From assembly GCA_020746105.1 (NCBI GenBank), contig CM036618.1, forward strand, positions 97,892,122-97,956,121: a DNA stretch of 64,000 nt, read 5' to 3'. This document shows positions 6,001 to 46,379 of the stretch, in pieces (position 1 is the first letter of the stretch; every line of letters starts with the position of its first letter). The notes under the pieces are model-generated. The model saw only the letters and a program-made list of their open reading frames with translations. It had not been told where the DNA came from and did no database searches. Position numbers and translations under genes: made by a program. This DNA comes from Trogon surrucura (Eukaryota > Chordata > Aves > Trogoniformes > Trogonidae).

Positions 6001-9000
6001 AAACCTAGCCTAAAAAGGTAAGAATTTCCAAAACAGAAATGCATTGTTTCTGTTAAAAGATTATTTCTTTTGTGTGTATGTGCATGCTGGATCTTAAAGA
6101 CCTTTTTCTTTTAAGTGTATGTTCATGCTGGACTTTGTTACAATGCTCTGTTCTGCCTATAATATAGCTCATAATTCTGAAATATTCTTAACCAAATGCC
6201 TGATTTTTAGAACATTAATAATTCTGCTTAGGTTGGTGGAACTTCTCATGTGCTTGACTTGGGCATGTGTGGAAGCATCATCTTCAGATGGAGCCAAAAT
6301 TTTATTCTGAGCAGTAACCATGTTATTTAAACAACTGTAGCTGATAACAGAGGGCCCAAACATACCACCCTTGCCTAGATGAGGACTACTTTTTTACTAC
6401 CAGCTAAATACCTTGACTGGGATTTCCGGAGGATGAGGAGAGGCAGAAGGAGCAGGGGGTGAAATAACTTTCATGAATACTAGTCGAGGGCTCAGGCACC
6501 TGGGTCGTGTTCTCTTTTGGACTGATTTTCTTCCCAGCAGCCTGCACGTAGCACCGTGCATTCTGATTGCATTATCCACACGTTGGACCATTTGGTACTT
6601 AATGGGGTATTTTTTAATACATCGGTGCCTGTTTTGTGTGGTTGCACTTATTAGCAGCGAAACCCACTCCGTTATCAGTTTACAGAACGAGTGCGTTTCT
6701 GTGAGATCCTCGTGGTGAGAAAATGTTACTTGGAGGTACTCGAGCTGAATTTCCATTTGAAGTGAAATAAAGCCAAGTATGTGAATGTCAGCAAACTTGT
6801 TTATAGGGGCGAGCGGTAGGGCGTACATGATCGAGAAGGTTGAGTCATGAGGCTGGTCGGGTTTGTCGTGGTACATCTGGCACGTCAGTCAAAGCGGGGG
6901 CAGCTGCCGCCCGTCACGGGGGCTCTGCTGAGGCATCATCCATCCATCAGCGCTGGCAGCCCCGAGTTGCTGTGTGAGAAGCTCTTTGCTGGACCCCCGC
7001 GTCTTCTCGACGTTATTGTTACAACCACTTTTGGTGCTCTTTTGAGACCAACAGGATGGTTTCACAGAAGGCCTGATATTTTTCCTTTACTAGACAAAAT
7101 ATGTGAAGAGTTACTAGCGTTTTCTTGTTAGTTTACAGAAAGTAAAAACTTGTATTTGATATTATAAACAATTCTGCATCTGTTTTCATATTTTCTTTGT
7201 TTCCAAACCGCCTCAAACTACTTGAAAAAGTGATGTCAAAAGTTGAACTGTGGTCAATCAAATCAAAATTCAATGAATCCCAAGAACAGTATCATCCACA
7301 GAATTTCTATTAATTTTTTTCTGCCTGCATTGCCACATGAAAGTTCTGTATGCATTAAGAAAATTAATATCAAAAGTATATCTATCACTATTAAGTGCAA
7401 ATTTATGTATTTGAGCTAACAGTATCACAATGCTTGCATTTGAATTCAGTAAAGAAGTCCTGACTGCCAGTTTTAACAGACATCCTCCTTTTGGGGAAAT
7501 TATTGGACATTTTGGAGTGAATTTGCCTTTGTGCTCAAAGATCAATTTGGGGCTTTACCGAATGCTGGATTTTGCTTTAGTTATATTCCTTTAATTTATA
7601 TTTTCTCAAAATGAAATTTAATTTTGTATTTAATTGCTTATAACTTTTTATCACCACCTGAAACGTCGGTTGGGTTCCTCAAGTTAAAAAAAAGAAATCG
7701 ACCAACCAAAAAAACCACTGTGTCTCCTTCGAAAAGCAATACTAGCTGCAAGCTTTGATAAAAGCACAGCATATATTTTTGAGTAGAGAAAGTGTGTACC
7801 AGAGGCTTTTGCTTTTTTATGGAGCTAGGATGTATCCCGCCACTCCCAAGTGCAGGGCATGAACCTGCTGGTGAGCACTTCTTTTGTGGCTTGTAATTTG
7901 CACCTGTCTTGAAGTAGGATAAGGACAGGAAGAAGGGATCTCTTTTAGGAATTTAGAAGGAACATTTAATCAGATTCTGGAGGACAGGGACAATAATTCT
8001 ACCTGTCTACTGTGGTGCAGAACATTCCGCCCTCCAGCAATAAGGGACATGATGAAGCAGAGTAAAAAAGGCTTATTCATGGTGAGATGTCTGGCAGGGC
8101 AGAAGGACACGTATCTGAAGTGCCTACTGAGAAAATGACAAAATGCTTTAGTTAGTACAGTCTGGCTCAGCTTCTGTGAGCTACACGCTCATTTTCATTG
8201 GTTTATGTTCTTTAAAGACTTGTTTTGTATTTTTAAGTCCTTCAGTAAAAGAAGGACATTTATTAAGTGCCAAATAAACATTGCCTAAGGCATCACTGCT
8301 GATAATGAGTAGGGTCTGCGTGTGGATTTTTGTCATCTATTCCTTGCACTTGTCAGTGTATGTGCCGACATTGCTGAACTAAAAACCTCAGTAAGTGTTG
8401 TTTGTGGTTTTTATTTTTAAAAAAGAGGTCACGGATCAAGATATAATTATTTTCAAGTATTTATTTTCAGCCTTTTTAGATGTCAGTCCAAATTTGTCTC
8501 AATCTGTTATGTATGTATGTGACAATAGGGAAGCATAAAGGTGTTTGTGTTGTGTAACTACTTCGACTTGATAATTTCCTAGTTTCTGAAAAACTAATTA
8601 TTCTTAATCATGCCATTCACAGACAAGTATGTAATTTTTTTCTTAAATTTGGTTAAAGTTTCTTCATATCAATTTATTCATTGTTTTACTAAATTGCCAT
8701 TTATTTTGATTTGAATGAGTGTGACAATAAAATAACAGTATTATAGAACTGTCACTTATTTCTAGCACATTTTCGTGGTGAAAGACATCTTTCAATCGTA
8801 ATCAGATTCAGTTTTAGCATGAGAGGAAATCATTGGTCTAAGTGATTTACATTTTGAAATTTTTCTTCTAGAGAAGATACCTGTGTACAGAGAGACTCTT
8901 AAGCTTCCATGTATGTCTCTGATCAGTGATGAGTTGAGAGGATATGCACTTGGAAAACTGTTGGCTGTTCGTTGTTTGTTTCTTTTTATCAGAAGTTTTT

Positions 9001-9109
9001 GCTCAGACATCAATGCAAAAGTAATTAAAAACCCTAAATATGGCAAAAGTTCATTTCCCACTAAAGGATGTTACAAATCTCTCTCTGCATCTTCATTTGA
9101 ATTTCCCAG
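1..9109 (+). other. SRBD1: SRBD1 intron upstream of the penultimate coding exon
   Basis: This stretch lies upstream of a clear splice acceptor (AG at 9108-9109), so it is intron if transcription is from the left. I looked for the preceding SRBD1 coding exon, which in the family carries the helix-hairpin-helix part and the segment just before FLSxIGG, and did not recognise it in any frame. That exon is probably further left. The sequence is mostly AT-rich with stop codons in every frame. One patch at about 6420-7060 is richer in GC and CpG and holds overlapping open frames on both strands (6397-6876 minus, 6847-7131 plus), none resembling a known protein. There are homopolymer A tracts near 1700 and 7687. 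No mobile element was recognised. Confidence 0.75.
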
Positions 9110-9294
9110 GTTTTTATCTTTCATTGGGGGAAACGCAAATGACATAGGAAAACCAGATATGCAGCAAAAAGTAAATGCAGTAGTTCAAAAGGAAGGACTG
9201 GAAGGCACAGCCAAAAGGCTGAATACGACAGTGCACACACTGCAGCTGATCATTGATGGTCTGACTCAGCCTGAAAGCTTTGACATCCGAACAG
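9110..9294 (+). CDS. SRBD1: SRBD1 penultimate coding exon (Tex-like, region before the S1 domain)
   Basis: SRBD1 is a eukaryotic relative of bacterial Tex, with a Tex-type N-terminal part, a YqgF/RNase H-like fold, helix-hairpin-helix motifs and a C-terminal S1 RNA-binding domain. This exon encodes about 61 residues between the HhH part and the S1 domain. It starts FLSFIGG and runs through a variable stretch (KPDMQQKVNAVVQKEG) to TVHTLQLIIDGLTQPESFD, which I recognise as close to mammalian SRBD1. It has an AG acceptor at 9108-9109 after a short pyrimidine tract and a GT donor at 9295-9296 (ACAG|GTAAAC). Its first base completes the codon before F and its last base (G 9294) begins the codon finished in the next exon, giving Asp and an in-frame [12 protein letters not shown] junction. 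The frame is open a further 227 bases upstream, to 8883, but that part has no family resemblance. The molecular role of SRBD1 is poorly known; nucleic-acid binding is inferred from Tex. Confidence 0.93.
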
Positions 9295-10809
9295 GTAAAC
9301 TTTTGTTTTTGAAGGCTGTAACCTCAGTTTGATTGTTCTATATGCCAGTTTTAAAATAGCACGTTTTCTTCTAAACTTCACGGATGTGTAAGTCCGTTTC
9401 TGTCTCGGGCAGGATAAAGGCTGTATCATAGTCAGATGTTTTTTTTCCAGCTCCGTAGGAAAGAGTGTGAATCCTGTCTGAAATCATGGCATTTTTAGCC
9501 ATAGGAAGGGGAGTTGTATGGCTGTTAACAAATGAAATAGTTTCAATATGTTGACTCTATGCTGATTAAATCTCTGTTGGCTCTCCATCACAAAGAGGAA
9601 TGCTGAAACCAAGCTGAAACAGTAGTAATAAAGGTCTGCGGAGCAGTAGTGTAGTAGTGTGTAGTTCAGATCTTTTAGTACACTAGTTCCTGGAGACAAG
9701 TGTAATTGGAGCACATGGCTCATGACCTGCCTTGGTTAAAATGTTTCAGTAGTGCTGAGCAGTTTTGAGATGGAGGGGAAGACAGATGAGGTAAGCAACA
9801 AAGCAAAACATCTGGAGATGCTGCTGTTTAATGAAACTTACATCTGGATTCTCTTAGGGCAGCAAGAGATAAAGGTGGGCAGCAAAGATGCAGGCTTGTA
9901 ATAACAGAGAATATACTTAAGTTTTAAAAAACCATTTCTGTCCCTCTTTTCTGTGAGGGTTCATCAGTAATTTTCTTGTAGATTTTATCAATATTTCCCA
10001 CTAGTGATCTAGAAAATGTATATCCTCTCTGTCTTTGGTTTGTTCTGTTGCTCTCACATCTGAGTTACAGTACGATAGACTACTGCCATATGAAGAGATA
10101 AAACTAAAGGCAAATAGGGGAAAAAGTTGGAATTCTGGTTTGGTGATGCTCTCTGTGGAAAATCTTGGTCCTGTTGGATTTTGGAAAAGATAAAACAGCG
10201 GTAGGAAAAGGTTGATAGGTTGAGATGGCTTAAAGGGTTTTCTGCAGAAGTAGAAAGTGGTAAGCAAGTAACAAGAGTTTAAAAGATCTGCCTGTGCCTT
10301 TAAATGCAGAATATTAGTGTGTTGGCATATTACCTGCACATAATCATTTGCTTGTGATTTTTCAAGTTGTCCATGCGAAGCAGCAGTTGCTTGTGTGGTG
10401 TCATGGGAAGCACTTGATTGATTGATGCACAGTGAGCCTTGTGGATTTCTCTCTTTAATGTGTGATGAGACTGAATATTCTCCTTCCTGTGTGCAACTTT
10501 GTATCGGAATAGAATTTTACGATTTGTGTAGCTCAAATAAGAGTTACTTCGAGGCTTTAAGAAAATTTAAAGAATCTTTCAGTCACTATCTAATATATTA
10601 TACGCTTCTGATCCCTTTGTGATAGTTTTATGTCATGGAGTTCACTATACTTATTACTCCATTAACCATAGTCTTGTAAAGTGATTCATAAAATGCCAGA
10701 AATCAGTCATTTATTGCAGATGGGTCTTTATTTAAAAAAATGTAATGAAGCACTAGAAAATAAGCTTTTTCTCCAGTGTCTTATTTTTGTTTCTTGTTTC
10801 TTATACCAG
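9295..10809 (+). other. SRBD1: SRBD1 last coding intron
   Basis: A GT-AG intron of 1,515 bases. The donor is GTAAAC at 9295. The acceptor AG at 10808-10809 follows a long T-rich tract starting near 10767. Both ends agree in phase (phase 1) with the flanking exons. Inside are only stop-rich frames, and I saw no repeat or RNA gene. Confidence 0.88.
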
Positions 10810-11099
10810 ATTTTGATAAACCTGACTTCAAGAGAAGCATAGTCTGCTTTGAAGATTTAAGTGTTGGTACTATTCTGACTGGAAAAGTTGAAAATGCCAC
10901 GCCGTTTGGAGTTTTTGTTGATATTGGTGTGGGAAGAGCGGGTTTGATTCCCATGCGAAACATAACAGAAGCAAAACTTTCTAAAGTGAAGAAGAGAAGA
11001 AGCCTGGGCTTAGGTCCTGGAGAAAGAGTGGAAGTTAAAGTGCTTAATGTTGACATTCCTCGATTGAGGATAACGTTGGATCTTATTCGTGTTTTATGA
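10810..11099 (+). CDS. SRBD1: SRBD1 terminal coding exon with S1 RNA-binding domain and stop
   Basis: This exon encodes the last 96 residues, starting with the split Asp codon (G 9294 plus AT 10810-10811) and continuing [16 protein letters not shown]. The S1 domain (OB fold) begins at about residue 17 with [22 protein letters not shown], followed by [14 protein letters not shown]. It shows the usual S1 pattern: the GxV strand, a Phe-Gly-x-Phe-Val turn (aromatic residues on the nucleic-acid face) and a conserved glycine after VDI. A basic KVKKRRS stretch, then [16 protein letters not shown] and the closing strand [10 protein letters not shown], end the protein at TGA 11097-11099. The end matches the ending of mammalian SRBD1, so the C terminus is complete. 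There is no frameshift or internal stop. Identification is very secure; the biological role is not well established. Confidence 0.96.
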
Positions 11100-24050: not shown

Positions 24051-24690
24051 TCATAGAAGCATAGAATCATAGAATGGCCTAGGGTGGAAGAGACCTTAGA
24101 GATCATCTAATCCAACCTCCCTGTCACGGGCAGGGACGCCTCTCAACTAGATCAGGCTACTCAAGGCTCTGTCCAACTTGGCCTTGAACACCTCCAGGGA
24201 GGGGGCAGCCACAACATCTCTGGGCAATTTATTCCAAAGTCTTGCCACCCTCGTACTGAAGAATTTCTTCCTAAGACCTAATCTAAATCTATTCTTCTTC
24301 AACTTAAACCCATTTGCCCATGTCCTATCAGTGGACACTCTTGTAAGAAGTCCCTCGCCAGCCTTCCTGTAGGTTCCCTTCAGGTATTGGAAGGCAGCTA
24401 TTAGGTCCCCCTGAAGCCTTCTCTTTTCAAGACTGAACAATCCCAGCTCCCACAGCCTGTCCTCGTAGCAAAGGTGCTCCAACCCCTGGATCATCTTTGT
24501 GGCCCTCCTCTGAACACGCTCCAACAGATCTATGTCCCTCTTACGGTGGGGACACCAGAACTGGATGCAGTATTCGAGGTGGGGTCTCACAAGAGCAGAA
24601 TAAAGGGGGAGAATCACCTCTCTTGACCTGCCGGCTACGCTTCTCTTAATGCATCCCAGGATGCGGTTGGCCTTCTGGGCTGCATGAGAG
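24051..24690 (-). mobile_element. CR1 LINE, 5'-truncated, well preserved
   Basis: Read on the minus strand, the element opens inside the C-terminal part of ORF2, just upstream of a long uninterrupted frame. It then has a short 3' UTR and ends with the CR1 hallmark: tandem ATTCTATG-type octamers (plus strand TCATAGAA, GCATAGAA, TCATAGAA at 24051-24074). CR1 copies are usually 5'-truncated and lack target-site duplications, as here. About 540 bases of coding remnant without a stop or frameshift suggest a fairly recent insertion. It is a dead copy because the reverse transcriptase core and endonuclease are missing. Confidence 0.93.
24147..24689 (-). pseudogene. CR1 ORF2 C-terminal fragment (end of reverse transcriptase and C-terminal tail)
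   Basis: The fragment has about 180 codons up to a stop at 24147-24149. It contains the typical CR1 run [35 protein letters not shown], then [19 protein letters not shown] and [24 protein letters not shown], and a basic tail ending [22 protein letters not shown]. This is the region after the catalytic palm; the catalytic Asp motif (FADD in the family) is absent because of the 5' truncation. The first eight or so codons of the open frame (24690-24713) do not look like CR1 and are probably flanking DNA read through by chance. It is not an expressed host gene. Confidence 0.9.
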
Positions 24691-25959
24691 CATATATATA
24701 ATAAAGAAGCCACATCTGAGAAGTCTGCGCAAAACTGATCACCTCAAAAGCGTAGTGCTGAATCTGTCAGTGGTACCAGTCCAGAGAAAGATCTGTCTTT
24801 TGGGCATGACACTGTGTGTGTTCAGAGGAAGGTATTGCAGGCTGGAGACGGCAGTAACTGCAGCTTCTACCTTTAGACATGTCACAGTATTGTTAATGGT
24901 GTAGGAAGCTTTTGGCTGTGGTTGTAGCTGGATGAATCCAGGCATCTCTCCTGTACGGGAAGGACTTGGGGGATTACATAGAAATTGGCTGTTCCTACTC
25001 AGACTAGTACAGCTAAACATTGAAAGTCTCTGGAAATTCCTCTTTCAAACTTGTTACAGTTCATTCCTCTGATCTGAGAGGTAATATGAAGTACTATGGT
25101 ATTACTGCTAGGCTGTTGATTGAACTAGTACATTCCCTATCAAATTGTGCTTTGTTTTATTGAATGTGGGAAGTATTAACAAGTTCTCTGACAGCAAAAC
25201 CCTCTGCAAAGCAAGAATCTGGGATATCTTTATTGCATACCTACCACAGAGAGTTGTCACTAGTCTATACTCTGCAAAGACAGTACGAGATAGACAAATC
25301 TCTTTGAAGATCAGACTTTATAGGAGGCTGCACAGTGAAAGCTGCCTCGTTGGTTTATTTGTGTGTATTGCAGTTGTAAAATTAGTGATGCATATATTAA
25401 AATTCACGTAATTTAGTATGATACTGTTTACTAAATTCATGCAATATAGATCAGTTTAAAAAAATCACTCACATTACGTGTAAATGCTAATAAAATGAAA
25501 TCCCTTAGCAGTCAAAGAAATTAGCCCATATATGAGTGAAATACTAAGGCAGGTCTTGTTATTTTTATGAAACTGTGAATAATATAAGTATCCAATTGAT
25601 AAAATTTTATTAAAGCTGACAGCCCTTAAGTGATCTAAGTGGTAAATATTGAAATGAAGTTTCAACAACACTGTGGTACCAAGGGAGGCCTAAGGCAGTA
25701 ATAAGGATTAAACAATGATTTAATGTTGTTCCTTGGGGGTAGGGATTGTTGTTTTAATGGAGAGCAAAAGCTCACTTCCTTCTAAATAATTAAACTGTGA
25801 TTTGAGAAATTGATCTAAGGTAGTTGTAGTGGTTTGTTAAGTCCGAAAGAGATAAATGAAGGCAGAGTGTCCTGGGGCAAGGCGAAGTCAGGGGAGAGTA
25901 GTGAAGAGATAGTTTTGCAGGATGGATTCATGACAAGTGTCCCTGGGGAAGGGGGAAGC
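24691..25959. other. Intergenic sequence, nothing recognised
   Basis: Unique-looking AT-rich DNA with short stop-bounded frames only. Confidence 0.55.
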
Positions 25960-32480: not shown

Positions 32481-34484
32481 AGAAAGAGGAGCCGCAGTTG
32501 GTAGGTGCCTTGTCATTTGTACATTAGCCTCCTATTCACGGCAGGGTAATGTGTCCACTTGCTAAAACAGACAGACTTGTTGGCAAACTGCACCCTTTTC
32601 CCCAACCTTCCTCAAAAAAGCATTTCTCAGAGCTTTCTCCTGGTATGAAGTCTGACTATTTTCAAAAAGCCAGTTACTACTGGCATTGAGAGCGTGGCTG
32701 GTTGAAGAGCAGAAAGAACTGGAAAAAGGGCATAGTCTGGCTTCTGAACCTGTTTTGCCACTGTCCTGTGGGCAAATCGCTTTGGATGTCCTGCCATCTC
32801 CTGCATTTAATTAGAAGCTTCTCAGGAAGGAGAAGTGTTTTTCAGTGTCTAGTCCCACGGCCCTCTGATTTCAGTGGGCTGAAGCAGTGAAGTAATATGA
32901 GCAGGAAATTAAAATGCAATTCATTCCCACTCCAACTTCTAGAACATGATATTTTCCTTGATGTTTTCTCTTTTAAAATTAACTTGATGTCTCTTTTGTC
33001 TAGCCTTGTCTTCCACTAAATACATTTCTAAGTGGTATAAACTGCTAGATGACTTAATAACCTGGTAGACTTCCATGCAATAATTTTTGGAATAGTTGTT
33101 TCCACTTGCCCTGTGTGTTAAAGTAATACTCTCATGCACATCCATTTCTTCAGAACTGATATTCTTCCAAAGTAGCATAAAAAGTCCCTTGCCTTTTCAG
33201 TTGTGACTGATTCCTTTCAAAGCCAGTCTACCAGAGACATTTTAGAATAAATTTATACTTTCATGCTTTTCTTCTCCGAGTTTTTTCTAGTGTCTTTTCC
33301 TTCAAGAGAAAGGGACATACAAGGATTGCCTCTGCTTCTTTTCCTTTCATAGATTGCTCAGCTTTTCAGCAAAGACCCATCTAGCAAATGTAAAATGCAA
33401 TTACAGGAGAAGCAGTCCCAAACGTAATTCCTGTCGGGATTACTAGTTCTTGCTTAAGCAAGAGCAAACTTCCCTTAAAGTTAAATACCTCCCTCTTTCC
33501 ATATAGTTGGTGCAGAGAGACCCTGTCATTTTTAACATTTCTGTTACAGTCAGATAGGCTTCAAGCTATACTCACTGCACAAAAAAATAGAAAAGACTTG
33601 AAGTTATGGTTGTGTGATGATGTCTGGGTAAACACTGAAGTAACACAAATCCCAAACATGACATAGTGTTTTCCCTTTCCCTCCAGCCCCCCACTCTCGA
33701 ATAAATAGATGATTCCAGCTACCTCTAGCTCCCCCCCCTCCCCCTGTTCCTTTTAGGATTTGTAATGTTGAAGATATGTGGTGACTGCTGAGGAAATTGC
33801 CCTAAGTGATATTAGAGTAATTCCCCTTAGTTTCAGTAATAAAGATTGCATATGTTTTATGAGAATAGCACCCCTGCAGTACAGAGAGCTACTGTGATCC
33901 ATCACTTTAAATCAAGAAATCATTTGACACGTTTATTTCCTGAACAGGAAGTGTTCTGTCAGATCAGCTGGAAACCCTGAAATCTGTGCATGTTAAGATG
34001 AAAGTCAAAATAGCAGACACTGTTATTTTACTGGGCCAGTACCGTTTTCATAGGGAGGCCACTCTACCGATGGGATGCTGAAGAAATATCTCTTTCCTTT
34101 CAGAGTGTGTATGTCTGAAAAAATCTATTAAAATAGATGTTGTAGCTGGTCATTTTTAGATGGCTGTACACATGAAAAATTATGTGATAAAATCTGGTCC
34201 AAAATAGAAATATACTTCAATTGTATTGTGTATTACATAAAAATGGGTTTAGCAGGGGAAAAAAAAAAGTGAGAAAATTTCCCATGTTACTTTCATCAGA
34301 GACTTTTAAAGTTGATTTTGCAAGTTTAGTGCCAATCATTGTCGACTCACAAATATATACACAGCAAAACCGAAACTGGACAGATTGAAAGCCACTTGTA
34401 AGCTCAAAGGCGACAAGAATGGCCAATTGCACTTCCCTTGAAAGCATCAGCTCTAGAAGCGGCCTCCCACCAGATTACTGATTG
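32481..34484. other. Intergenic sequence, nothing recognised
   Basis: A C-rich run lies near 33730-33745. No gene, repeat family or RNA was recognised. Confidence 0.5.
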
Positions 34485-34725
34485 TACACGTGTTAAAGCT
34501 AACCGAATATTCTCAGTCTGGGTCAACTTTAGCTTAAACATTACTAATATAAAAAGAGCACTGGAATTGTATAAGCCATGCATGCCAGCTGCGTTTTTAT
34601 TGGCCGTCTGCAACTTCAAAGGCTTTCCTGCTCTGAAGCCCAGGCAGGTACCGTAGGCTGCCCTCCAACCTGCCCTTGCTGGCTTATTGATTCTCAACAT
34701 GGCTTTACCTACAAGTTGGTGGATT
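34485..34725 (+). repeat. Duplicated non-coding element, copy A
   Basis: The core at 34586-34664 aligns to the reverse complement of 36422-36497. By eye about 66 of 74 aligned bases match, with two 1-base gaps and one 5-base gap, including 17 identical bases (TTTTTATTGGCCGTCTG at 34594-34610). Weaker but ordered similarity continues on both sides to about 34485 and 34725. Frames are open on both strands across this copy, but the indels do not keep a shared frame between copies, so it is not coding. The TTTTATTGG core resembles a HOX/CDX site joined to a reversed CCAAT box. It could be a duplicated enhancer or an unrecognised old repeat. Confidence 0.7.
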
Positions 34726-36359
34726 TGTTTGCTGTGTGAAATTATCTTGAAAGTAGATTCTTCTTGACCTGCTTAAGACTTTTTAATTTTTTTTAAGTCA
34801 TCAATAAATATGCATCACTGTTTTCCCCCTTCTTTGATTCTGTCTGTTATTTCACCTGTCGGAGAGATCTGTTTGAGTAACAGATGCCTGAAGTATTTTG
34901 ACAGGGTGTTTGTTTCTGTTTCCAGCGTAAAACTCATGTGATGACAAGCAGACAGTAAAAAGAGATTTGCCCCAAATGTGCTAGGGCCCCACTTTTCCTC
35001 TTCCCTCTCCCACTTGAAAATTAGCTTTAGTGTTATTACTTTGGCACGTGCCTTGCTGGGAAAAAAAAAAAAATCCCTCCCTGCACAGGACCAGGGAATC
35101 CTGATCTTCCCTCTTCTTCAACAGATATTCCATGACAAGATACTTTGTGTGATCAGAAAGAAATATTACTTCTAAGTATTGTTGAAGACAGGAGTTGCAT
35201 CCATCTTCTTGAATGCCTAACTCTTGAACAGCTGAGGAGGAATCTCTGAGATACCTGCTACACTCTTGAAGATCCAAGTATGTCTTGAATTTCAGTTAAA
35301 GAATTCACTTTCAGGGCTGTCTGAAAAAAAAGCAAAGATACTGAAGCATAGCAATGTTTAAATTTGCCCTGGCATGATGCTGGTGCCAGATATTCAGTAG
35401 AATGATTCAGTTGTTTCAGGCAACTCCACTGAGTTCCTGTATTTTAGTTAAGATCAAAACCTAATATTTTGCTGATATTAGCTGTCAAATAAGCCTATAT
35501 TGGTTACTGTATGAGATGAAGTCACTGCCTCTTTTAGCTGTCATTTAGAAATATATGAGACTTTTGTCTCTAGATTATCTTTGCCTTCACTAACGTTTTA
35601 TTACAAAACTAACTTCAATGAAGCTCCTTATTTTCAATAGTAACTCAAGATGAGAATTCGTAAATTCAATTAAGTCTAAGCATCTGCAGCATTTTGGAGC
35701 CTTCTACCTTGTTTGTACCATGCAATGGAATAGGTTTAGGGATGCTCCAGTGAACAGAGCTCAGACTGGTTATGAAAGCAGGTGGAAAATTGCCCTGTGT
35801 GTCTCAATTAAATAATCCCTCTGATTTCATGCAGCAAGGCAAATGTCATTAAATGATGTTAGCACCACAAGTTTCTTTGCAGAACTGTGGATGTACGCAT
35901 ATGTGCAGAAGGTACCTGAAACATTACACTGGCATGTAATTCTGCCCCTCGGAGTGCAAGCTCTCTGTAGTAAGACCTGTCCCTTATTATGCCAAAGCAG
36001 CAGCTAGTCAAATGGGGTCCTGATCTGGGGTGAGGGCTTTAGATACTCTTATAAAACAGTGTAGTAAAGACCAGGTTGCTGAAACTGAAAAATACATTAA
36101 ACATCCAACTGAATTTCCTCATTGTTCCTTATTCTTACAAATAAAAACTTGGCACAGCGACAGTATATCTGCTTTTCTGAAGTTTTTGTCTTAAAGTCTT
36201 GGGATTAAAGTATAAACTATGAAGTTTTACATGACTACAAAAGAACATCTTTACTACATGTTTTCAGATGAACCGTCCCCTTACTGATTGTCAGCGCTAT
36301 AGCTGGACTGCAAAACGCTGAAATTCATTTCAGCCCCAGTATGTTTCAGCTTAATTTTC
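34726..36359. other. Spacer between the two inverted copies, nothing recognised
   Basis: It contains an A run near 35059 and short random ORFs. I saw no transposase, LINE or LTR signature that would explain the flanking inverted copies as ends of one element. Confidence 0.5.
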
Positions 36360-36590
36360 AGGCAGAAGCCTGTGGATAAAATCACTTCAAAATCCGTAAG
36401 TCAGCATAGCAGAGAGATTTCAGGGCAGCCTACCTACCTGGGCATTAGTGGAGGAAAAGCCGTTTGAAGTCACAGACGGCCAATAAAAATGCAGCTGCCA
36501 TTCAAACTTTAAATGGCTCCAGCATTGAGCTTTTACCTTGCTGTTACTTAAGCAACAGCTGAAATTTTTGCAGAAGGTGCCTTTGAATGC
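36360..36590 (-). repeat. Duplicated non-coding element, copy B (inverted)
   Basis: This is the partner of the block at 34485-34725 in opposite orientation. The core is 36422-36497, with the shared 17-mer at 36473-36489. In the flank, the near-perfect 18-base palindrome CTGTTACTTAAGCAACAG (36541-36558) contains the GCTTAA that aligns with 34531-34536 of copy A. The two copies differ by small indels and no coding frame is kept. Function unknown. Confidence 0.7.
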
Positions 36591-38259
36591 TGGCTGACAG
36601 TAAGTCTGCGTACCCATGGTGTGGCCCAACCCCATCACCCACATTTCCTTGTTATTAAAGACAAATAGTGAGAAGCACTCCAGATAACTCACGATGCTGA
36701 GAAATAGGAAAGCTCTGGGCTGCTGTCATGCCTGGGGATGAGGATGGCAAGACCTGGCAGCAGTTCATGGTTCCCTCTCTGCAGGGCAGGACTCTGGCTT
36801 GAAGAGCTCCAGGAGGCCTGTCTGTGCCGAGGCTGGGCAGTCACCCAGGAAGGGCCAGGGGAAGCTCCTGCTGACATCTCAGAAATGGGGACATGCATCT
36901 CACAGGCTGATACATGGGCTATGTGAGTACTTTGGGGTTTTTTTGCGTTTTAAGTCACCTGACTTTTCCTTTTCTGTAGAGGTGAGCTCTGCTTCCCCAG
37001 CCTGCGGTGGGAACTGGAAGGGCTCGCACGCTCTGTCTCTTCTTTGACGCTTTGGTGGATGCAAGCGCTTTCCAGGGCTTTGTGCAGCCCCCAGTACAAT
37101 GATACAGGGGTTTCTGAGCTTATTGGCACAGCTGGAATACAAAGACTTATGAATGAGGCTGGGGTGGCTGGCTCTCAAATAGAATTAAACATAGCCCTCT
37201 GCTTTCTGAGTTATCCACTTTTATTGGTTCTTGAACAAGAAAACGATTTAAAGCAGACACATTAGATACCCTTAAGGATTTAGCTAATTTTGCCTTTCCA
37301 CATTATAGAATGTGATGTGTCTGTTCCTAATCCTGGAAGGACTTTAAATGCTGTTCTTCTGGCTTGTAAGGATATTCCAGGGAATCTCAAGTAGCTTTCT
37401 TTTTCCTGTGGACAGGTTCAAGGGTGAGAGATGGGGGGGAGCAGGCAGGAGTGGTGACATAAAGCTGTTCTTTTGTTTTAATAGGATCACAGTATGGAAG
37501 TGGTTGACAACCACTGTAATTGGATTTTACAGGGAAATTCAAATTATCACACTAAAAAAAGAACCCATTTTTATCATTCACAAGTCCTGAAATAGCATGT
37601 CATGGGTGTAAGCACTGAGCATTGCTTGTGCTTGGCCTCAGGTTAAGCTAATTTGGAGGAATAATGGATAAAATTTTATTGCTGGCATTTGTTGGATTTT
37701 TTTTAAATGACAGCTGTTAGCAGCTGCTTGGTGGTTTGGAGGGTTAGAAATGGCCCAAGCACAGACCAGCTAGACCAGCGCACAGAGTTCGGGTAAAGCA
37801 GCAGTTGAAGATGTGTGGAGCTTTGCCATTTCCTCATTGAGTAACCCCGTACATGGTGTAGGTGAATAGTTTAACCAGTTTATTTCCAGATAATTTATAC
37901 TTTTACCCAACTACAGAGCACATAATAAAAAAAACCCTCCTTAAAAAATGTTTGCAGATGTTTCCCTTTGGCTTTTGTTTCATTCCAGTTGCAAACTTCC
38001 TGCATTTCCCATGTAGTGCGGCTTCTTGTCTTTGAGAAGGAAAGAACATTTTAAACGTTGGAGCTACTTCTGCACCTCACAAATGAGATTAGCTTCAGTT
38101 TAGCACAGTCATTTCATTCTGGAGGGAAAAGTCTTATTACTCTGTGTTAAAACCTCACCTGATTAGATTCTAGTTTTGGGTAGAATGAAAAAACAGAAGA
38201 AAATCAAACGTTGCTGTTTACAAATGGCATGATTTGCTAGCCTGACAAAAACTCGCTGT
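36591..38259. other. Intergenic sequence, moderately GC-rich then AT-rich
   Basis: Bases 36720-37060 are relatively GC-rich with overlapping short frames on both strands, none resembling a protein family. Bases 37620-37760 hold TGACAGCTGTTAGCAGCTG (a MEIS-type TGACAG plus two E-boxes), a possible small regulatory element. No gene was recognised. Confidence 0.45.
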
Positions 38260-42284: not shown

Positions 42285-42360
42285 AGTTTCGTCCCTTTTT
42301 TCCCCTTTTGTTCGGCCTTTTTCGGCCCTTTCGCCCTTTTTCGGCCCTTTTTGCCCTTCT
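42285..42360 (+). repeat. Short pyrimidine/CGG microrepeat inside the LTR
   Basis: Several imperfect copies of TTTTTCGGCCC (also TTCGGCC and TTTCGCCC) lie in tandem just downstream of the TATA box, probably in the transcribed R/U5 part. Confidence 0.7.
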
Positions 42361-42615
42361 TTTCTGCAATGACCGGTGTCCAGAGAGGACTCCATCTGAT
42401 CTCCTGATTTTGATTCGGATCCTGAGTTCCCGAATCCAGCTCCCTGTATCCAGCTCCCGCCGCCGCTGAGCCTGGGGTTTCTCCAGTGCCTCCTGCTCTG
42501 CAGCACCAGTGGGGATTGCTATCGGGGGAGGGAGTCGGGTTTGATATCGGGCTACTATCTATAGTTGTATATAGTTCTTTACTTTTATCTTTTTACCATT
42601 ATTTCTATTACTTTC

Positions 42616-42765: not shown

Positions 42766-45279
42766 TCTCGGAGAAGCGGCTTAAAACAAAAATCTAGCAC
42801 TCAGGCTAGCACAGCCTGCTGCTGCTTCTTGCAGCTTGTGGCTTTCAGCGACGTGTTCTAATGTCTTCTTCTCTAAGAGTTCTTTCCACAGAGCACAGAT
42901 CATTAGTAATTGCTATTCTGCTGAGCCTCAGGCCATTCAGTGTTCCACTTGTAGGTCAATTCATTTTTTGACTACAGCATCCTCTAGTTCGTGGCAGTGC
43001 CCTGATAGTCCTGCTCTCTCTGGAGACACTGGTCTGATCAGTCTAGTGTTTTCTTGCTCAGGGTGCTCACTGATGCTGAAACAGTGTTGATAAGGCTTCA
43101 CCTTTTCATCCTGCAAGACGTTGCCTTGTGTTTGCGAGAGGCTGCTGAAACCTGTCCCTGGGTGCTTGGCAGCTGCAAATCACTCTGAGGTGCAGTCAAA
43201 GGCTCTGGTAGCACCACAAACCCTGTCTTTTCCCTTCATACTCCATTCAGGTATTTTTGTTGGCACAGAAGTGACAACAGGTGCAAATCAATATAAAGAA
43301 GCATATGGGAGATATCTGCTTCAGTGGAAGGTTTTCTGGCAGAAAATGTGTCAGTGACACTAGCAATTAAGATGTTACTCTCATCTCATACGCTCTTCAC
43401 CTGTCTAATGGAGTTTGAAGGAAACCTTAGCATCTAAACATATGGGCATAAGTATGGGAAGCGAAGAGGGATATGGATGATGTTTAAAGCCACTGGGGAC
43501 GGCAGACTTGCTGCCTGCCAGCAGGATCTATTTCTGAGGAAGCGACAGAGTTATGATTTCTCAGCAAAATGGAAACACTGTCAGAAATGGAACCACTTTC
43601 ATTACAGAATTATGAGAATCGTTAATTCCCCAAGTTTCAGCGTTTTTCTGAAGCTGCATGCGGTCTTTCTCTGGGGAAGGGCATCTGTGTGAGTGAACAG
43701 GGGAATGGAAAGGAATATGACAACTGGAAGTGAATTCCTTGTAGGAATGTGAGGAGTCAGCCATAAAATATTTCCCCTCGTGACCGTAAGGCTAGAGCTA
43801 CAGGAGGGTATTAGGAAGGCCTTAGGTCACGCATGCAATGCAACAGCATGGATCGGGCAGAAGAGTGGCATTCCTGGAAATTTTAACACTGAGGGAAAAG
43901 CCCATTGCAACCAAACTAGAAGTGTGTGGACAATGAGAACAAAGGTGGTTAAAAAAATAACTGAATGAAATCTACTTTTGCATTAATCATTTTGAATCCT
44001 CAGAGACTGTTTGTGCGCTGATATTTCTGTTGGAAAAACCCTAGAAGTAGAAAAAATATTTTAACATATTGGAAAAAAAGATGGGCTAAACTGGAAGGGA
44101 AATAACAAGACAGAAAAAGGTTTTTAAATAGAATTAATTTTGAAGGTGTTCGTTTTTTTAAGATAAGGCCAAGAAGTGCGTTTTTCAGTATGGGAGCAAG
44201 AAAATTCCTTCAAGTGAGTGAGTTCCTTTCCTTTTCCTAGTCCTCAGTCATTGATTTTGGATATCTGTCACCTTTTGGTCAGTCAAATGATCAATAATTT
44301 GATAAATCTGTTATATTATCATCATTTCTTTACAGTATGTGTTTTCTGTTGCCCACACAAAACAGCAGCAGAGATTGTGTGTTTACTACTAGTTTATTGA
44401 TGGTAATTTGAATATCATGCATGTTCAGGTTCTTGTTGAACCAGTCAATGGCAGATACTCATCAACACCTTCTTTCTGAAGTCTGTTACCCTGCGCATAG
44501 TTATTTACTATGGAGCCCATCAATCATACCCAGTGCTAATTAGAATATTTGTGGTACTGATTCAAATGCTTTGCAAAAGTTTATAGATACTACTGCTTTT
44601 TGCTAGCATTTTATTTTATGTCAATCACATTCACAACGCTAATGGAAAACGAAAATAGACTTCTTATAAATGCTTTAGTTATGTTTTTTATCTAGGTCTG
44701 TTGTCCTGCTTGTTTAATAACAGCATGATATGGTCTTTCTCTATTTGAACTTGCCTAGTGCTGCAAAATCTGGTCTACTTTTAAAAGGTTCAGTTTGTTC
44801 AGGACAGCAGGTTTTAAAAAAATTCTTCTAGGTGATGTTTAACTTTGGCATTTGCTATCATAGGGCCATATCCCTCACTTAACTGTTAAATCAATACTTG
44901 ATTAACCACTCATACTCTTCCTTAATGTTATTTATTAGCTATATATTTTTAATTACCTATTGACTTGACAGTAAGTTTTGGTGTCTTTTTCACCAAAGTT
45001 GTTCCCTCTCCAAAATGAATGGAACATTCATTAAATCCTTACTAAAGCAGTCTCAAAGTCCTTTAGACATGGACTTAAATGAAAGCAAGACTGGACTCAG
45101 CTGATGCTCTCTAGGTTTTTCTCATGGTTGTTCTCTTTTTGAGCACAGAATTGGCACCTTTCCCATTCACAGGGGATGAAAGAGAAGTGGAAAAGTACCA
45201 AGCAGGGTATGAAGGGGAAACTTAGGAAATCTGAGCTCACTTCCTCTCTCTGCTTCAGACATCCTGTCATATGTGGGCA
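42766..45279. other. Intergenic sequence, nothing recognised
   Basis: Short random ORFs; no repeat family, RNA gene or clear regulatory block was recognised. Confidence 0.5.
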
Positions 45280-45410
45280 AGTAACACTGACCCTCTGTGC
45301 CTTCCTTCCTGCACAATGGAAATAACACTATGACATTGCCTCTGGAGGGGTGTGGTGAGAGGAAATCTTTAATGACTATGAAGTGCTTTGAAGACACTAT
45401 GGTGAGTAAC
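45280..45410 (+). repeat. Possible ancient MIR/CORE-SINE-like relic
   Basis: Elements appear in the order known from old amniote SINEs: CTCTGTGCCTTCC, then CACAATGGAAATAACACTATGAC, then GTGTGGTGAGAGGAAATC, then GAAGTGCTTTGAAGACACTATGG. The match is by memory of the family pattern and is strongly diverged. Confidence 0.4.
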
Positions 45411-46379
45411 AGGTAAATAAAACATTTACAGGAGACATTTCTATGCCTTTCTCCTGTCCTGCCTTAGTGACATGAGGCATCAGTCTCCACGCACAAAATC
45501 AAGTATTTTGACTCTGGTGACCATGGATGGAAGGCAATAATGGGTAGGAGTTTCAGTGTCTCCTTCATTTTGTGGCCTCTCGAGGCACCTTTTCTCATCC
45601 TTGGAGGATGTCTTTTGGGGCTGGCTACCATTTGCTCAAATCTTCCATTGGTGTAAATTGATGTATTCTTTTGGTCTGCAAGTTGCTTGCATATTCTTTT
45701 GTGCTCCAGTTCTGTTTTCCTAGTGCCATCAATTTTTAGGCCTTTTGTTTTGTCATGTGTCCAGCATTATACTTTTTCACCCAGCTGCTGATCCTCTCCC
45801 AAGTGTTGCTTATGAAGGGGACAGGAAGATGTGTGTTGATACACTGCTTGTCACTTGCTGCCTTGAGCAATGTCTCAGCCGCACTGCCAGGACCATACCG
45901 CAGCACAGACCTCCTTGGTGTGAGACTGTCTCTCCTCCCTCACACCTGTGCAGACAGGCACGATTTCCAGAGCCATATACACTACACAAATTTGTAGTTG
46001 CACATGTATAGGTATGCACACTTCTGTGCTGGAAACACAGCAGGGCTGTGATGAACTGCGCCTGGTTCAGAATAACTTTCTTTCTGATGTGTCAGGGAGA
46101 AGGTTTAAATTAACGTGAGTTTGTAGATCCCATTCACTGCACAGTTCCCCAAATTTAAATGTCTCAGCACAGCTGGGGCTGCACAGCACAACCATGTGCG
46201 GATGAAGCTGGGATTGCTCCTGGATACCCTCTATAATGAAACCCTCAAGCGCTAGAGGTTAAATAACCACCTTTGCTTTTGTCAATTCCTTAATCACTTT
46301 CTACTCATACACATTACTTGGGCATTTTTTGGCTTTAAACCGTTTACGGTCCTCTCTGGACTAAGTGCCTTTCCACTCC
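45411..46379. other. Intergenic sequence, nothing recognised
   Basis: Overlapping short frames near 45745-46019 do not resemble any protein. No repeat was recognised. Confidence 0.5.

Follow-up and report, generated by a model that had tools for sequence, protein, structure and literature searches.

The window analysed here is a stretch of 64,000 nucleotides from Trogon surrucura (contig CM036618.1, assembly GCA_020746105.1), which was examined together with the 200 kb beyond it in the same assembly (264 kb joined). An open frame in the window encodes an S1 domain (Pfam PF00575, E 1.2e-10), and we take it to be the last coding exon of SRBD1, the name being given from synteny. The NCBIfam matches to this frame were all of S1 type and under the cut-offs, and the coordinates given are those of the open frame. 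Another frame at 8823-9332 was without a Pfam match. Beyond the window, a single SIX-family match was obtained at E up to 1e-5, and this gene bears a SIX1_SD domain (E 1.8e-50) and a homeodomain. Its identity of 98.9% over 178 residues to a SIX2 query peptide and the synteny led us to assign it to SIX2, not to a paralogue. The main features are as follows.

10764..11099, plus strand: S1-domain open frame, presumed to be the last coding exon of SRBD1
34523..34713, plus strand: copy A, supported extent ~190 bp (local and two-sequence alignment; flank tests)
34579..34664, plus strand: core of copy A (blastn within the window, 80.7% over 88 columns, E 2.5e-16)
36371..36562, minus strand: copy B, in the opposite orientation (local and two-sequence alignment; flank tests)
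36422..36504, minus strand: core of copy B (blastn, reciprocal)
213148-213681 (joined coordinates), plus strand: SIX-family gene

The likely SRBD1 and the SIX gene share a strand and are separated by ~202 kb, so that a gene desert lies on the 5' side of the SIX gene. From the end of the S1 frame at 11099 and the SIX match at 213148, the pair of copies is placed ~23.5 kb downstream of the presumed final SRBD1 exon and ~177 kb upstream (5') of SIX2, inside the desert, where GC content is 39-45% per kb around the pair. The initial annotation had already supposed an SRBD1-SIX2 locus from the window itself, and the SIX gene was indeed found ~177 kb further on.

Copies A and B are homologous and inverted relative to each other, exactly where a block at 34586-34664 had been noticed to return in reverse at 36422-36497. 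When 34400-34760 was aligned with the reverse complement of 36330-36620, as had been proposed as a check, the local score was 93, and none of 500 dinucleotide shuffles exceeded 32. The control with real windows was uninformative for this score, its best rows overlapping copy A. The pair ranks first among the 11 inverted pairs listed for the window. Its inverted arms are 88% complementary over 42 nt (34579-34620 / 36463-36504) and 84% complementary over 19 nt (34653-34671 / 36415-36433), and the spacer between the 42-nt arms is 1842 nt. With a 42-bp arm of 88% and a spacer of this length, the cruciform suggested in the initial annotation would be unfavourable, and the looping suggested beside it gained no support from the results. 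A 46-base inverted repeat, 98% identical with a spacer of 108 bases, is situated ~19 kb past the SIX2 start (L019, about 7958-8003 / 8112-8157) and is a much better hairpin candidate than the A/B pair.

The alignment of the copies has 131 identities in 185 ungapped columns. The mismatches comprise 33 transitions and 21 transversions, and gaps occupy 13 more columns, a pattern that would be expected of decayed homologous copies. Shared coding is disfavoured by the gap lengths (1, 1, 5, 2 and 1 columns), which are mostly not multiples of three. Of the flanks, the right one stands out: none of 200 shuffles equalled its similarity, and one of 200 real windows did. The left one is borderline, being equalled by 8 shuffles and 3 real windows out of 200 each. 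The ordered similarity claimed previously for about 240 bases thus holds over ~190 bp (34523-34713), and the figure of 240 was slightly generous.

Identity is denser in the core than in the flanks. The best 40 columns of the 352-column alignment hold 35 identities, which was reached in 25 of 5000 column permutations, a lenient figure because local alignment itself prefers dense cores. The core has 67 identities in 78 ungapped columns, in agreement with the "66 of 74" of the initial annotation, whereas the flanks have 64 in 107 (Fisher p 1.4e-4), though these figures are optimistic because the core limits were picked on the same alignment. The description of a strong core with fading flanks is therefore upheld. 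Such uneven decay may fit selection on the core, although the uneven identity of one pair can partly reflect how local alignments get chosen, and a cautious reading of the sequences would be an old duplication whose core has evolved more slowly than its flanks. Flank divergence is ~35-44%, and distances between A and B range from 0.37 for the whole alignment to 0.66 for the left flank. Assuming neutral change at about 2e-9 per site per year, the duplication might be roughly 90 to 165 million years old; this is a rough guide only because the alignment of the flanks is uncertain.

The conserved sites in the cores are listed below.

34586..34592, plus strand: CAGCTGC, E-box-like, copy A, one base from the 17-base run (conserved runs)
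34594..34610, plus strand: 17-base identical run, copy A (exact pattern search; conserved runs)
34653..34664, plus strand: second conserved block GTAGGCTGCCCT, copy A (conserved runs)
36422..36433, minus strand: second conserved block GTAGGCTGCCCT, copy B (sequence reading; alignment)
36473..36489, minus strand: 17-base identical run, copy B (exact pattern search)
36491..36497, minus strand: CAGCTGC, E-box-like, copy B (sequence reading; alignment)

The 17 identical bases in a row, as reported in the initial annotation, are exact in both copies. The run reads CAGACGGCCAATAAAAA on the other strand and includes CCAATAAAAA, which we take to be a posterior-HOX-like site. Allowing up to 3 mismatches, the run had two matches in the window, both of them exact, and at least two matches appeared in 3 of 100 shuffles. 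In the 264 kb, CCAATAAAAA occurs twice, both times at the A/B pair, and GTAGGCTGCCCT also occurs twice; CAGCTGC is common (91 occurrences). Identical runs of at least six bases are GCTTAA, CAGCTGC, TTTTTATTGGCCGTCTG, ACTTCAAA, TTTCCT, GCCCAGG and GTAGGCTGCCCT, and a TCF-like ACTTCAAAGG of copy A is broken up in copy B. We also regard CCAATAAAA as a HOX13-type site and CAGCTG as an E-box. The HOX reading of these motifs depends on one short AT-rich site. In the available texts, the HOXA13 site from SELEX is AAATAAAA with the core ATAA (PMC3148250), from which CAATAAAA of the element differs by one base, and the HOXA/D11 motif from ChIP is CCATAAA, in a study that performed ChIP-seq of posterior HOX proteins in chMM cultures (PMC5289628). 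Such cultures are chicken limb micromass cultures. CCAATAAA has no occurrence in the available text of PMC5289628, and CCAATAAAA as a HOX13 site was absent from the literature matches listed and from the available texts of both papers. The 13-base string TTTTTATTGGCCG likewise had no match in the literature searched, which was mostly without subscription papers.

To the depth of our searches the element has two copies in the window's own assembly of 1.17 Gb. The 79-base core of copy A had two matches at E up to 0.001, namely A itself and B (E 1.4e-11), and 120 bases of copy B had two matches at E up to 10, B itself and A; these counts are lower bounds, as the genome search skips very common words and scores the best candidates only. 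Since A finds B and B finds A, sensitivity is demonstrated at 81% identity over ~80 bases, and since the matches are limited to A and B, no dispersed family is visible at this sensitivity. The 25-base pattern CAGCTGCRTTTTTATTGGCCGTCTG with up to 3 mismatches had three matches in the whole assembly, A and B without mismatch and a third with 3, and its reversed control had none. The third match shares 19 identical bases with copy B without any extension and stands in promoter-like DNA of 68% GC. This place (97415-97439 of contig C47), the sole other close match to the core string, contains repeated GGGCGTGTCC units.

A third copy was found neither in the window, where the best extra profile match had E 0.9, nor in the 264 kb, where the best (E 0.22, ~6 kb past the SIX2 start) was judged to be chance. 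The core patterns also had no match in prokaryote and viral contigs, searched for stray vertebrate DNA. Self-comparison of the 264 kb at E 1e-6 gave 33 matches, in which the A/B pair was 26th by score; the remainder are one short local hairpin and 31 matches joining scattered places, including a CR1-like stretch near 24 kb. This stretch has a 198-aa open frame (24147-24743, minus strand) without a Pfam match that resembles the terminal part of a reverse transcriptase from a CR1 LINE, and sequences akin to it appear again in the 200 kb that follow the window. Apart from these, a TTTCGGCCCTT-like unit is tandemly repeated in a short array at 42287-42364, in a kilobase with an AT skew of -0.25.

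Signs of a mobile or RNA origin were sought around the copies. Direct repeats of at least 10 bases flanking either copy were absent from the spans searched; the best flanking repeat had 8 bases at A, where 0.65 were expected, and 9 bases at B, where the expectation was 0.16, so that no target-site duplication of a dispersed family was recognised. A SINE (MIR) origin was rejected, as both copies score at the background mean against a MIR consensus. The same comparison does detect a MIR-like stretch elsewhere in the window (~45151-45490, minus strand; top score 34.8, where the background averages near 12), which is probably an old MIR-like SINE relic. A structured RNA gene was likewise unsupported: Rfam had no match at gathering score in the whole window and one weak match between the copies (E 1.3), and the fold z-scores for both strands of each core region were -0.42, -1.52, -0.20 and 0.46.

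How the two copies arose and why they persist can be read in several ways. They might be two relics of an old and nearly extinct repeat family, the rest of which decayed past detection, with no present function. The flank divergence suits such a great age, old families can shrink to few recognisable copies, and our genome counts are lower bounds. We nevertheless regard this as unlikely, because either copy used as a query returned two genome matches at a sensitivity reaching 81% over about 80 bases, in place of the hundreds of dispersed copies that the initial annotation had named as the mark of a repeat family. Moreover, two survivors 1.8 kb apart in 1.17 Gb would be improbable under dispersed insertion, the flanking duplications are only near chance, and 31 of the 33 self-matches in the 264 kb join scattered places, unlike the local A/B pair. 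The inverted layout with its 1.8-kb interior would, on the other hand, be natural for the terminal inverted repeats of one 2.1-kb DNA transposon. Compared with each other in inverted orientation, the halves of the interior score 18.6, slightly above the 17.9 that was the highest among 100 simple shuffles, and four-base matches at the mapped outer edges are in mild excess (32 against a mean of 22.8, reached by 2 of 40 shifted pairings). Five-base matches were at chance (5 against a mean of 5.6, reached by 24 of 40), and matches of 8 bases with up to one mismatch numbered 4 against a mean of 2.6 (reached by 12 of 40). Exact target-site duplications of 6, 7 or 8 bases were absent at the mapped outer edges, no more than 4 of the terminal 10 bases coincide at the candidate edges listed, the best conservation is inside each arm and not at the outer ends, and the stretches searched (79 bases of A and 120 of B) had no further genome copy. 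Thus a transposon is, in our opinion, the least credible origin of the pair.

Two readings remain. In a neutral local inverted duplication, the similarity of the core could be due not to function but to gene conversion between the copies, for which inverted copies 1.8 kb apart could serve as partners, and the identity is gathered in one tract. Gene conversion usually leaves a clean tract, however, and the core contains scattered substitutions and several gaps, which makes this explanation rather improbable. It is still less probable, we think, that A and B represent promoters facing outward, or exons, of non-coding transcripts not yet described, in which a CCAAT box would precede AATAAAAA as a TATA-like element. 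The third genome match in GC-rich promoter-like DNA, with its 19 bases identical to copy B, is in favour of such promoters, but the pair itself has no Rfam match at gathering score, no unusually stable fold and a surrounding GC content of only 39-45% per kb.

We therefore favour, with some confidence, an old inverted duplication, local in extent, of a cis-regulatory element that lies in the SRBD1-SIX2 desert and probably serves SIX2, with its core kept. The parts of this reading differ in strength. That the duplication was local is very probable. A regulatory function of the core appears probable. The duplicated enhancer under selection proposed initially stands as a duplicated element with two genome copies and with uneven decay that would fit selection, while enhancer activity stays a candidate property. 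SIX2 as the target is slightly favoured on balance; against it, SRBD1 is nearer (23.5 kb) than SIX2 (177 kb). HOX input to the pair is conceivable but tentative. According to the favoured reading, an ancestral element in the desert would have been duplicated locally and inverted long ago, and both copies would have been retained while their flanks decayed. The core would most likely be a cluster of transcription-factor binding sites, in which the posterior-HOX-like CCAATAAAAA stands one base from the CAGCTG E-box and is followed by the ACTTCAAA and GTAGGCTGCCCT blocks. The two copies may act jointly, as partly redundant or dosage-adding enhancer modules ~177 kb 5' of SIX2. On the motif evidence, including the confinement of CCAATAAAAA to the pair in the 264 kb, we propose A and B as a candidate pair of HOX-input cis-regulatory modules for SIX2. 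As a bolder and unlikely extension, the inverted HOX-input enhancers, paired since before modern birds, could form a two-module dosage device for SIX2, with the 25-base HOX-plus-E-box string intact genome-wide only at both modules.

The pair resembles several known systems in part. As with shadow or redundant enhancers, two elements whose site content looks alike stand next to a single candidate target gene, but unlike A and B most shadow enhancers described so far are not known to be duplicates in sequence. Closest in kind are the duplicated conserved non-coding elements (dCNEs). The available text describes dCNEs near paralogous genes (PMC2781166), and like A and B they are short non-coding elements in two homologous copies near developmental regulator genes. 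In contrast to them, A and B share a single locus, in which 1.8 kb separates the inverted copies, and are known here from one genome. The only extended genome matches are A and B themselves, both in the SRBD1-SIX2 gap and not beside paralogous genes, so we do not class the pair as a dCNE, though it may work alike. A paralogous 32-nucleotide CNE of HOTAIR and ncHOXD11 also has two short conserved non-coding copies in inverted syntenic position, but these belong to two HOX clusters that go back to genome duplication, and birds are reported to lack them (PMC7139118, compared by description of the available text only). With regard to Six2 itself, the available text on the mouse distal enhancer (Six2-DE) places it ~60 kb upstream, with a span of about 2.3 kb and a required Hox motif, and mentions no duplicated inverted structure (PMC5805373). 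Both Six2-DE and the A/B pair are upstream of Six2; by distance and description, ~60 kb in mouse against ~177 kb in the bird, the identification of A/B as the bird Six2-DE is not supported. The pair was not named in the literature on SIX2, SRBD1 and related topics among the matches listed from the accessible texts.

Finally, SIX2 is a gene with reported Hox control (PMC5805373; PMC4506574, as far as their available texts describe), and mouse limbs deprived of Hoxa/d9-11 show raised Six2 (PMC4506574). Should both copies prove to be conserved, the pair would provide a clean natural test of duplicate enhancer retention, with one gene, one landscape, a common core and flanks that have decayed. The pair would likewise contribute a candidate distal element of SIX2 that is farther out than the mouse distal enhancer.
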